In this document: positions 4,955-13,410 of the stretch, piece by piece | Position numbering within the stretch: the stretch's first letter is position 1 | Layout: every line of letters begins with the position of its first letter | Assembly (NCBI GenBank): GCA_903922535.1 | Contig: CAIXUF010000449.1 | Location: 1-17,145 of the forward strand | Reading direction: 5' to 3' | Length of the DNA: 17,145 nt | DNA from: Candidatus Hydrogenedentota bacterium | GTDB lineage: Bacteria > Hydrogenedentota > Hydrogenedentia > Hydrogenedentiales > CAITNO01 | Program-made: the position numbers and the translations under genes | The notes under the pieces: generated by a model | Databases searched by the model: none | Told to the model about the DNA's origin: nothing | The model's input: the letters and a program-made list of their open reading frames with translations, nothing else

Positions 4955-4992
4955 GCTGGGTTCTGGTTCTTCCTCAGGCAGATCGGTCGTCC

Positions 4993-5037
4993 ATGGACGG
5001 CATGGACGAAATGGACACTATGGACGAGATGGACTGG
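4993..5037 (+). repeat. 9-bp tandem array, five units of ATGGAC-NNN
   Basis: Five consecutive units with a constant hexamer and a variable last three bases: GGC, GAA, ACT, GAG, TGG. The array begins inside a perfect 10-bp palindrome GTCCATGGAC (4989-4998). It lies 26 bases beyond the sulfatase stop codon and about 40 bases upstream of the tetR -35 box. The unit matches the array at 13366-13410. In one frame it would encode repeated Met-Asp-X, but no gene context supports translation. Confidence 0.9.
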
Positions 5038-9080: not shown

Positions 9081-9836
9081 ATGTCCAAGATGACCCGAAG
9101 GGATGCGTTTAAGGGCGCGGCCGTGCTGGCCGCGGCAGGCATGCTGCCCACCACGGCCAAGGCCGAAGACAAGAAGCGGCTGAAGATCATCGTGGCCGGA
9201 GCACATCCGGACGACCCGGAAAGCTCCTCGGGCGGCACGATGGCCCTCTATGCAGACGCGGGTCACGAGGTGGTGTCCCTGTACCTCACGCGCGGCGAGG
9301 CGGGCATCCACGGCAAGAGCCACGAGGAGGCTGCAAAGATTCGCACCGCCGAGGCGGAGGCGGCCTGCAAGATTCTGCACGCTCGGCCCGTGTTTCTCAC
9401 ACAGATCGACGGATCCACCGAACTCAACGCGGACCGTTATGATGAGGCATGGAAGGTGATCAAGGAGGAGATGCCAGACATTCTCATCACCCATTGGCCG
9501 ATCGACGGGCACCGGGACCATCGCATCATGTCCCTGCTCATGTACGACGCATGGCTGCACGCGAAGAAGAAATTCGAACTCTTCTACTACGAGACGGAGT
9601 CGGGCATGCAAACACAGCATTTTGGGCCGACGCACTATATGGACATCACCGCCACCGAGGACCGGAAGCGACAGGCATGCTATGCCCACCCCAGCCAGAA
9701 TGCGGAGAAGGGGTTCTACGTGCTGCACGACGAGATGAACCGGTTCCGGGGCCAGGAGGCCGGCGTGCCGTACGCGGAGGCGTTTATCCGGCACAACCAG
9801 TCAGGCAGGGTCTTGGGTCTGGGGTCTGGGGTCTAG
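9081..9836 (+). CDS. Twin-arginine-exported PIG-L family zinc deacetylase (GlcNAc deacetylase-like)
   Basis: Probably removes N-acetyl groups from amino sugars using one zinc ion; 251 residues. The start at 9081 has AAGGAG 7 bases upstream and gives TRRDAFKGAAVLAAAGML, a twin-arginine signal. AGAHPDDPE provides His42 and Asp45 as zinc ligands with Asp44 as the likely base. HWPIDGHRDH (138-147) provides the second conserved site, including Asp142, His144 and His147. It follows the glycosidase-like gene closely, so the two are likely co-transcribed. Oddity: the last nine residues (RVLGLGSGV) and the TAG stop are written entirely by the GGGTCTN repeat array, so the native C-terminus after about FIRHNQSG has probably been replaced. 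The active-site half is intact, so activity may survive. Confidence 0.92.
   Translation: MSKMTRRDAFKGAAVLAAAGMLPTTAKAEDKKRLKIIVAGAHPDDPESSSGGTMALYADAGHEVVSLYLTRGEAGIHGKSHEEAAKIRTAEAEAACKILHARPVFLTQIDGSTELNADRYDEAWKVIKEEMPDILITHWPIDGHRDHRIMSLLMYDAWLHAKKKFELFYYETESGMQTQHFGPTHYMDITATEDRKRQACYAHPSQNAEKGFYVLHDEMNRFRGQEAGVPYAEAFIRHNQSGRVLGLGSGV
9808..9835 (+). repeat. Left heptamer array (GGGTCTN)4
   Basis: Four exact 7-base units: GGGTCTT, GGGTCTG, GGGTCTG, GGGTCTA. It lies inside the 3' end of the PIG-L gene and supplies its stop (TAG, 9834-9836). The same heptamer occurs inverted at 10336-10356, on the other side of the S23-type gene. Four regular G-tracts make this strand a candidate G-quadruplex former. 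Confidence 0.92.
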
Positions 9837-9902
9837 TGGGGACGACAGCAGACAGAGACATCCGTTTGCGCATGCCATGTCAACTGAGGCTGGAGACGGG
9901 GC

Positions 9903-10295
9903 TTGAAAAGCTACCGAGAGCTTGATGTTTGGAAAAAGGCGATGGATATGGTGGTGGCGGTATATGAATTGACTTCCGACTTCCCTGCCCAAGAACGGTA
10001 TGGCCTGACGAACCAAATGCAGCGGGCGGCGGTGTCCGTGCCGGCAAACATTGCTGAAGGCTACGGGCGTCTTCATCGCGGCGACTATATCCATCACCTC
10101 AGCATTGCGAGCGGCTCTCTGGCCGAACTGGAAACTCACATTACCCTCGCGGTGCGCCTTGGTTTTGTGGAGCGAGAATTGGCTGCCGCCGTGTGGAATA
10201 TGACCCAGGAAGTGGGCAAAATGTTGTCGGGCATGATCCGTTCCCTGCAAGAAAAGACCAACAAGAGCCAAGCACCCAAAGCAGGCGACACATGA
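9903..10295 (+). CDS. Four-helix bundle protein, S23/23S-rRNA intervening-sequence protein family
   Basis: Small 130-residue all-helical protein. Family hallmarks are plain: KSYRELDVWKKAMDMVVAVY (residues 2-21), FPAQERYGLTNQMQRAAVSV then PANIAEGYGR (27-56), and GSLAELETHITLA (71-83). The start is TTG at 9903 with GGAG 7 bases upstream; the first ATG (residue 14) would remove the conserved first helix, so TTG is preferred. The family was named for proteins encoded in insertions of Leptospira 23S rRNA genes, but most members, as here, lie elsewhere; it is related to the Avd accessory protein of diversity-generating retroelements. No rRNA, reverse transcriptase or variable repeat is present. The Lys/Gln-rich tail is probably disordered. 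It is enclosed by inverted GGGTCTN arrays. Cellular role unknown. Confidence 0.93.
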   Translation: MKSYRELDVWKKAMDMVVAVYELTSDFPAQERYGLTNQMQRAAVSVPANIAEGYGRLHRGDYIHHLSIASGSLAELETHITLAVRLGFVERELAAAVWNMTQEVGKMLSGMIRSLQEKTNKSQAPKAGDT

Positions 10296-10335
10296 ACCGT
10301 AATTGGCCGAGTTTCGACCGTCACCACAGTTCTTC

Positions 10336-10356
10336 CAGACCCAAGACCCAAGACCC
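10336..10356 (-). repeat. Right heptamer array, (GGGTCTN)3 on the minus strand
   Basis: On the minus strand the units are GGGTCTT, GGGTCTT, GGGTCTG, in exact 7-base register and inverted relative to the left array. The first unit starts at the base immediately after the DUF2147 TGA stop, so the array lies in the 3' untranslated region of that gene. Confidence 0.9.
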
Positions 10357-10368
10357 TCACTTCTTGGG
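10347..10368. terminator. Hairpin joining the DUF2147 stop region to the right heptamer array
   Basis: CCCAAGA (10347-10353) and TCTTGGG (10362-10368) form a perfect 7-bp stem with an 8-base loop that contains the DUF2147 stop codon. There is no T-tract, so it is at best a weak or Rho-assisted terminator between the convergent S23 and DUF2147 genes. Confidence 0.3.
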
Positions 10369-10824
10369 CTCCACGTAGCGCGTCCACTTTTCGGTGCGGC
10401 CGAGCAGCGATATGCCGATGAACCCGCGCAGGCCGAGGGTGTTGTCGTTCTCCAGCCACATTTTGCCCTTGTAGGTCTTGCCCGATTCCGGATCGTAGAC
10501 CGTGCCGCCCCCCCACTCCTTCTTGCCGTCAAACTTGAAACCTTTCAAGAACACAAGCCCCAAAATCGGTCGGCCCTGCAGGGACTTGTCCGGATTCTCG
10601 CGGTCATGCTTGGCCTTTCCCGGCTCGGCGTCGCCCGCAGGATAATCCGGCTCCTGCAGCCAGACAAGCCTGCCCTCAAAGGTGCCGTCCGCCGCCTTGT
10701 AAATCTCCACCCGCGACTTGTCACCCGCCGTTGTCCACTGCCCCACAAGATCCGTTTCGCTCAGGGCATACGCTCCGAGGGCAACCATGACCGCAACCGC
10801 CGCAATCCCAATCGTCCAGCGCAT
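10357..10824 (-). CDS. Exported DUF2147 protein
   Basis: A 155-residue protein with a short signal peptide (MRWTIGIAAVAVMVALGAYALS), probably periplasmic. The mature part matches DUF2147: LVGQWTTAGDKSRVEIYKA, GRPILGLVFLKGFKFDG, GGTVYDPESGKTYKGKMWL, and the ending LRGFIGISLLGRTEKWTRYV. The family is a small lipocalin-like beta-barrel of unproven function. The start at 10824 has AAAAGGAG 8 bases upstream; the open frame continues to 11664, but that extension overlaps the DUF4838 gene and has no gene-like character. It has its own good promoter and is divergent from the DUF4838 gene. Its stop codon directly touches the right heptamer array. Confidence 0.9.
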   Translation of the reverse strand: MRWTIGIAAVAVMVALGAYALSETDLVGQWTTAGDKSRVEIYKAADGTFEGRLVWLQEPDYPAGDAEPGKAKHDRENPDKSLQGRPILGLVFLKGFKFDGKKEWGGGTVYDPESGKTYKGKMWLENDNTLGLRGFIGISLLGRTEKWTRYVEPKK

Positions 10825-10864
10825 ATGATCATCTCCTTTTTCAGGTTGAAACATATCCATCCCT

Positions 10865-10893
10865 AGCATAACAGTCGAACTGCAATTCGTCAA
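10865..10893 (-). promoter_or_regulatory. Sigma70-like promoter of the DUF2147 gene
   Basis: Minus strand: -35 TTGACG (10893-10888), 17-base spacer, -10 TATGCT (10870-10865), about 40 bases before the ATG. It is almost the same arrangement as the sulfatase promoter. Confidence 0.55.
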
Positions 10894-13365: not shown

Positions 13366-13410
13366 ATGGACGATACGGACAATATGGACGGGATGGACGG
13401 GATGGACTTG
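13366..13410 (+). repeat. 9-bp tandem array, five units of ATGGAC-NNN
   Basis: Units ATGGACGAT, ACGGACAAT, ATGGACGGG, ATGGACGGG, ATGGACTTG: constant hexamer (one T-to-C change) plus variable triplet. The array starts 37 bases after the DUF4838 stop. Unit and copy number match the array at 4993-5037, over 8 kb away, but the triplets differ. Confidence 0.9.

Follow-up and report, generated by a model that had tools for sequence, protein, structure and literature searches.

An S23 gene between inverted heptamer arrays in Hydrogenedentota: a candidate single-gene mobile cassette with relatives in several phyla

Can a small gene that has no transposase and is enclosed by short tandem repeats be a mobile unit? 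The question is raised by positions 9808-10356 of the window, by which we mean the entire 17,145-nucleotide stretch of Candidatus Hydrogenedentota DNA analysed here. The original prediction had described this region as an S23 gene between inverted arrays of the heptamer GGGTCTN and as a possible minimal mobile cassette. Four units were indeed found at 9808-9834, three at 10337-10356 and the gene at 9903-10295, and the region is organised as follows:

9081-9836, plus strand: left neighbour, a PIG-L-family deacetylase gene weakly matching a TAT-type signal
9808-9834, plus strand: left array, four GGGTCTN heptamers, at the 3' end of the PIG-L reading frame
9837-9902, plus strand: left spacer, from the array to the S23 start
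9903-10295, plus strand: S23 / 23S_rRNA_IVP four-helix-bundle gene, 130 amino acids, TTG start
10296-10336, plus strand: right spacer
10337-10356, minus strand: right array, three inverted heptamers, pairing with the left array in the predicted RNA fold
10357-10824, minus strand: right neighbour, DUF2147

The gene between the arrays is an S23 gene and not a Y1 (HUH) transposase. In profile searches it matched PF05635 at 3.6e-38 (130.5 bits against a cut-off of 33.8) and TIGR02436 with a score of 125.7 against a cut-off of 24. The relationship to Avd that had been proposed was found as a weak similarity, the scores for the bAvd model (33.3, cut-off 40) and the DivGenRetAVD model (35.3, cut-off 80) both falling below threshold. 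The start codon is TTG in the window and ATG at the same position in the related locus L001 (L and G numbers are our labels for loci and genomes).

Both edges of the cassette meet stop codons of the convergent neighbours, as had been claimed: the PIG-L stop TAG (9834-9836) overlaps the final unit of the left array and the DUF2147 stop codon (10357-10359) adjoins the right one. In translation the left array supplies the final PIG-L codons (VLGLGSGV). The PIG-L proteins of the relatives L002 and L003, inspected by eye, end in GLL followed by a stop, which suggests that the old PIG-L stop may have been lost through a small deletion. The lower GC content of the interior was also borne out (0.554, with 0.628 and 0.616 for the 2 kb on either side), values as low occurring in 10 of 333 overlapping 500-bp windows. 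Single GGGTCT hexamers showed no excess in the window (10 versus 8.06 expected); it is the tandem arrangement that is in excess, a three-unit array having occurred in none of 2000 first-order Markov sequences of window length. The predicted RNA fold has the two arrays paired at its base (z value -4.0). The cassette is set between the PIG-L and DUF2147 genes and not within an rRNA gene. Elsewhere in the window, tandem 9-bp arrays of the ATGGACNNN type are present at 4992-5034 and 13366-13407.

The history of the locus was then approached by comparing orthologous PIG-L/DUF2147 junctions, the check that had been recommended for finding an empty site. PIG-L orthologues led to three close loci in Candidatus Hydrogenedentes drafts, 84-87% identical, and the cassette was present in three of the four syntenic genomes, inverted in one and missing in one. 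L001 carries the S23 gene and the arrays in the position and direction seen in the window. In L002 the arrays occupy the window position and the S23 interior is inverted, as the match between L016 and L019 runs backwards in the S23 interior and forwards in the flanks. The inverted gene of L002 is itself interrupted by a second insert with ACGGATT-type and ACGGATTAC-type arrays and no evident gene, so that one array element is nested inside another; the arrays of this second insert resemble in look those flanking the GxxExxY genes described below. By eye, L003 has neither S23 nor heptamers at the junction (10735-10890), which carries a different, palindrome-like repeat of the GGTGCG type, and L004 has different genes downstream of PIG-L. 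Junctions with (L001, L002) and without (L003) the cassette were therefore recovered, but the locus offers no clean empty site, because the L003 junction bears another repeat. A cassette at the same place in all relatives, which had been named in advance as the mark of vertical inheritance, was not found, L003 being without it. Since the same junction is occupied in L001 and L002, the cassette is, on this comparison, old at the window locus and was inverted once; the state of L003 would be compatible with loss and with original absence. Three S23 loci could be compared among the Hydrogenedentota drafts G001-G003 (the window locus, L018/L022/L023 and L025/L026) and each was common to more than one genome, so that movement in these drafts appears slow.

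The genomes of L001-L003 contain other S23 genes beside or between short-repeat arrays, the word differing from locus to locus, and the survey was extended to further genomes. Profile searches returned an S23 match in 52 of 68 Hydrogenedentota genomes, 44 of them over the cut-off, and in all 11 genomes of Acidobacteria, Bacteroidota and Planctomycetota. A total of 72 S23 loci was returned and 67 were used in the flank test, after leaving out L024, L027, L030 and L107 (below cut-off) and L029 (the second half of the gene of L021); 59 had both flanks and 8 lacked a sufficiently long one. The left flank was aligned locally with the reverse complement of the right flank and a score of at least 14 was taken as an inverted repeat. 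By this test inverted repeats surrounded 48 of the 59 S23 loci and none of 30 PIN control loci, all with both flanks (Fisher 7e-15), and were found in 2.2% of 872 mispaired S23 flanks. Periods from 4 to 12 were scanned and strong periodicity was found at 7 bp (37/59), 8 bp (9/59) and 9 bp (2/59), and at no other period; among the PIN controls it occurred at 7 bp in one locus and at 9 bp in two of the 30. Hexamer arrays, visible at a lower periodicity threshold, characterise a small S23 clade. Eleven of the 59 loci fell under the inverted-repeat threshold; inspected by eye, some of these still have an array on at least one side, L019 is disrupted, and no clear array pair can be made out at L082, L096 or L102. 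The cassettes have a median length of 525 bp (5-95%: 431-731), and G exceeds C in the 5' arm of 78 of 81, repeated copies included.

As a second control, 30 Y1 transposase genes of the same genomes were submitted to the same procedure. Inverted repeats were present at 15 of the 26 with both flanks, the longer ones being palindromic and REP-like, and the same test found a 7-9 bp tandem array in the flank of one of the 26 as opposed to 48 of the 59 S23 loci. The flank method thus detects RAYT-like ends and tells S23 ends apart from them. The Y1_Tnp loci (L326-L355) are RAYT-like genes with long REP-type inverted ends that occur alongside S23 cassettes; the two systems coexist in the same genomes with distinct ends.

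The converse search, from arrays to genes, was performed on 1.6 Mb from four genomes, made up of long contigs known to hold S23 except for 400 kb of G047 contig starts not so chosen, and it returned 12 inverted array pairs. Seven had an interior of at least 400 bp, of which five enclosed S23, one a GxxExxY gene and one no recognisable gene (G036:C1), while the five with interiors up to 270 bp had no S23 or GxxExxY match inside. Twelve loci with weak or one-sided arrays were scanned for residence in rRNA, returning one tRNA and no rRNA, and a phage search gave no S23 match at the limit used. The array-bounded S23 cassette as a general design, both as a cassette and as a class, is well supported by these data.

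Evidence for movement was sought in plasmids. S23 genes occurred in 42 plasmid records, mostly cyanobacterial; the 14 examined first comprised 13 cyanobacterial records and one from Gemmatimonadota. Arrays of GGGTGTA, GTAGGGA, AACAGGG and AGTCAGG, among others, were visible. In a set assembled later, 12 of 15 plasmid S23 loci passed the inverted-repeat threshold, L152, L158 and L169 lying below it; the right array of L169 falls within the coordinates taken as gene. In cyanobacterial plasmids L148 and L150 lie between cas6 and cas4, and L149 lies between nrdB and nrdA of a Nostoc plasmid, on the opposite strand.

Five sites are known both filled and empty in cyanobacterial plasmids. The site after a TraM-like gene is filled in L153 and L163 and empty in L160 and L161, with an array remnant in L162; the site after an integrase gene is filled in L146 and L147 and empty in L164 and L165. 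In a Nostoc operon the first junction is filled in L169 and L170 and empty in L156, L168, L171 and L172, and the second is filled in L156 and empty in L168-L172. The fifth site is filled in L157 as compared with L166, L167 and L173. The inserted stretch runs approximately from array to array, that of L156 being about 36 bp longer, and the insertions lie at or near a stop codon. The arrays are gained or lost together with the S23 gene. No target-site duplication was evident by eye at the five sites and about 40 bp of target were replaced at the TraM site, a combination that illegitimate insertion fits as well. One cassette family, with the word AGTCAGG, was found at three sites (L157; L169 and L170; L174 and L175), its homology ending at the outer array edges, and genome G059 holds two cassette copies 90% alike over 375 bp in different places. 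Because of the five filled and empty sites and the one family at three sites, the S23 cassette class appears mobile. The minimal mobile cassette without a transposase that had been proposed is supported by these related cassettes. Vertical inheritance alone was rejected for the class on account of the filled and empty sites, although the window locus is common to three genomes.

We then examined whether the repeat word is tied to the S23 protein. A tree was calculated from 103 of 113 S23 records (at least 78 amino acids, no stop), with few columns and 43 of 100 forks left open, and words were assigned by eye. The clade of the window S23 has GGGTNNN words and other clades have AGKCTNN or RATTNNN; one clade with 8-mers spans three phyla and another has 6-mers. 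Periods cluster on the tree to a degree matched in none of 200 shuffles, near-copies contributing to this result. Words and proteins were compared over 95 rows with a clear tract, L019 being omitted because its best tract belongs to the nested insertion. Word similarity correlated with S23 identity (Pearson 0.43 in a Mantel test, 0/2000 permutations), the mean word score rising from 4.2 below 25% identity to 13.4 at 65-80%. For between-phyla pairs only, r was 0.23 (0/2000 permutations within phyla). This tie could reflect recognition of the word by the protein or joint inheritance of gene and arrays.

The single word GGGTCTN fared differently. The original prediction had treated GGGTCTN arrays as a possible mark of S23 genes, an idea that we rejected for the class after searching G001-G004 and 68 genomes: they occur in 10 of the 68, 12 of 13 three-unit sites in G001-G003 are without a nearby S23 match, and each lineage has its own word. 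These twelve further sites in the relatives show that repeats cognate to the window cassette are dispersed. Among genomes known to carry a GGGT-clade S23, 6 of 11 had GGGTCTN arrays away from that gene, as opposed to 3 of 57 others (p 2.9e-4), with groups drawn after seeing the tree and a non-exhaustive survey of S23 clades. A reversed-pattern control was also positive in G001, G003, G005, G032, G039 and G050, most strongly in G039 and G050, because a GGGTCTG array reads nearly alike backwards. L041 and L044 have, around 1440-1620, GGGTCTN array pairs with gaps of about 45 and 70 bp that look like gene-less hairpin derivatives.

Sequence comparison shows how the cassettes are built, that word and protein vary together, that sites occur both filled and empty, and that one family occupies several sites; that S23 recognises the array, what form the intermediate takes and which part host enzymes play are points that we infer. 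The reading that we prefer, and to which we would give an even chance, is a mobile S23 cassette with the arrays as its termini, in which each S23 reads the word particular to its lineage and host enzymes copy the cassette. Positions 9808-10356 would then be one copy of a single-gene mobile cassette, a free-standing kin of the S23 intervening sequences of rRNA. S23, for which a ring of five four-helix bundles is reported and which is akin to Avd, would bind the paired or single-stranded array, as a DNA hairpin or as RNA, and would pass it to host replication or repair enzymes that copy the cassette into gene boundaries. Solo arrays and short hairpins built from that word would have arisen as derivatives and be mobilised in trans, much as RAYT spreads REPINs. 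We know of no catalytic site in S23; it probably reads its array, with host enzymes completing the movement. Solved relatives of S23 are XCC0516 (2gsc) and 2rld, the former being reported as a homopentamer of four-helix bundles (PMC4990558). The participation of S23 in movement is supported indirectly, at sequence level, by the tie between word and protein. On the other hand, arrays carried along with the gene and diverging with it could by themselves produce the co-variation, and for the S23 gene of C. burnetii decay and an apparent lack of protein production in vivo are reported (PMC4990558).

A second reading places the events at the RNA level and is in our view possible but unlikely. The double-stranded array stem would be cut by RNase III in the transcript, which would make the cassette tolerable in any operon or rRNA, S23 would be an RNA-binding passenger and mobility would be incidental or would proceed via an RNA copy. 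RNase III removes the S23 intervening sequence of C. burnetii with a cut at the first repeat (PMC4990558), an S23 reading frame is reported in other rRNA insertions (PMC11270868), and the pairing of the window arrays at the base of the predicted fold and the cassettes within operons (cas6-cas4, nrdB/nrdA) would agree with such a role. However, some cassettes are antisense to their neighbours (L149, L152) or, as in the window, lie between convergent genes. RVT_1 was undetected in several drafts with more than one S23 match (G041, G059, G016, G054, G001 and G002), so an RNA copy would have no obvious way back.

A Y1 (HUH) transposase working in trans on hairpins formed by the arrays, with S23 as mere cargo, is improbable. 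The usual substrate of these enzymes is single-strand hairpins, and a helper of this kind is conceivable since Y1_Tnp genes were found in 54 of 68 Hydrogenedentota genomes. The Y1 genes carry other ends, as the single tandem array among 26 indicates, the drafts G007, G057 and G067 have S23 matches and no Y1 match, and the tracking of S23 sequence by the word is poorly explained if S23 is cargo.

Still less probable, and disfavoured, is the view that S23 settles by chance at what are simply slippage-prone repeats between genes or hairpin terminators. Heptamer arrays are common between genes in other bacteria (PMC4692102 and PMC4679880), G001-G003 have GGGTCTN arrays dispersed away from S23, and the few periodic PIN flanks reported above point the same way. 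Against it, array pairs are rare and those of gene size enclose S23 or GxxExxY in six of seven cases, arrays and gene are present or absent together when filled sites are compared with empty ones, and words follow the S23 protein. Least probable of all is retro-movement in which S23 serves as the Avd of a reverse transcriptase, diversity-generating or other. The sub-threshold bAvd and DivGenRetAVD matches speak for it, but RVT_1 was found in 30 of 68 draft genomes and was missing in several S23-rich ones, including G059 with its two similar copies, and a reverse transcriptase seems unnecessary for cassette movement.

The mobile S23 cassette was finally compared with known systems. The original prediction knew of no established element of this form; the Coxiella rRNA intervening sequence very nearly has it. 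According to PMC4990558, the 23S rRNA intervening sequence of C. burnetii measures 428 nt and contains an S23 gene; its terminal inverted repeats form a 28-bp stem, and two or three tandem GACAGAT heptamers, variable among strains, precede the S23 start. The paper also cites an older proposal that such intervening sequences are mobile and need the ORF for mobility, and describes their origin as unclear. Like our cassettes, this element combines an S23 gene, a length of about half a kilobase, pairing terminal inverted repeats and tandem heptamers, and the design is therefore not wholly new. Unlike the window cassette, which lies between protein genes, it resides inside 23S rRNA and is excised by RNase III, and the passages of that paper examined here mention neither a protein-linked change of word nor solo arrays, nor sites outside rRNA that occur both filled and empty. 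By analogy, the comparison suggests that rRNA intervening sequences may be rRNA-lodged members of the S23 cassette class; what would be new relative to them is a form that is rRNA-free, mobile and present in several phyla. A literature search covering sources other than subscription papers and preprints found no description of the word-protein tie or of array-bounded S23 cassettes outside rRNA.

The likeness to RAYT/REP/REPIN (cf. PMC2817692) consists of a small gene between inverted repeats that also occur solo or as hairpins between genes; the S23 cassette differs in having a four-helix bundle instead of a Y1 transposase and tandem 6-9 bp words instead of palindromes. Avd of the diversity-generating retroelements belongs to a related fold family, the S23 matches being below cut-offs; in contrast to that system, the S23 cassette apparently does not require a reverse transcriptase. 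With MITEs and IS elements it shares small size, inverted ends, insertion between genes and gene-less derivatives, and it departs from them in having no transposase, no clear target duplication and an end sequence that varies by lineage. Intergenic tandem heptamers are described in Nostoc and Xanthomonas (PMC4692102) and, as TAACTGA repeats, in Beggiatoaceae (PMC4679880), with 70 and 75 inverted heptamer pairs reported in two Xanthomonas genomes; the terms S23 and four helix are absent from both texts.

More broadly, and with somewhat less than even confidence, S23 may be the founder of a mobile class without a known recombinase. In such a class a non-enzymatic ring of four-helix bundles would read the lineage-specific tandem word at the ends of the element and spread cassettes and gene-less array hairpins, explaining part of the heptamer repeats of cyanobacteria, Bacteroidota, planctomycetes and Hydrogenedentota, with the rRNA intervening sequences as lodged members and GxxExxY (PDDEXK_3) as a nuclease-bearing branch. 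To our knowledge, S23 proteins have solved structures, many annotated copies and no known function, and we know of no agreed origin for intergenic heptamer repeats. Joining S23, the rRNA intervening sequences and the heptamer repeats would give each a testable role, that of a mobile unit with its word matched to its protein, and if S23 recognises its word, different phyla would provide a natural set of proteins paired with their repeats.

The GxxExxY family came to our attention through the sole gene-holding array pair without S23 (L218:14596-15107), whose gene we presumed to be PF13366 (GxxExxY, PDDEXK_3), a presumption that was then tested. Among 30 PF13366 loci (L236-L265), 27 had both flanks and 19 of these showed inverted repeats (3e-9 against the PIN controls). 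Their words, such as ACACGAAAG and CACGGAGAA, often look like 9-mers by eye. The strict periodicity threshold, applied to periods 6 to 10, was reached by just 6 of the 30 loci, so the GxxExxY arrays are shorter or looser.
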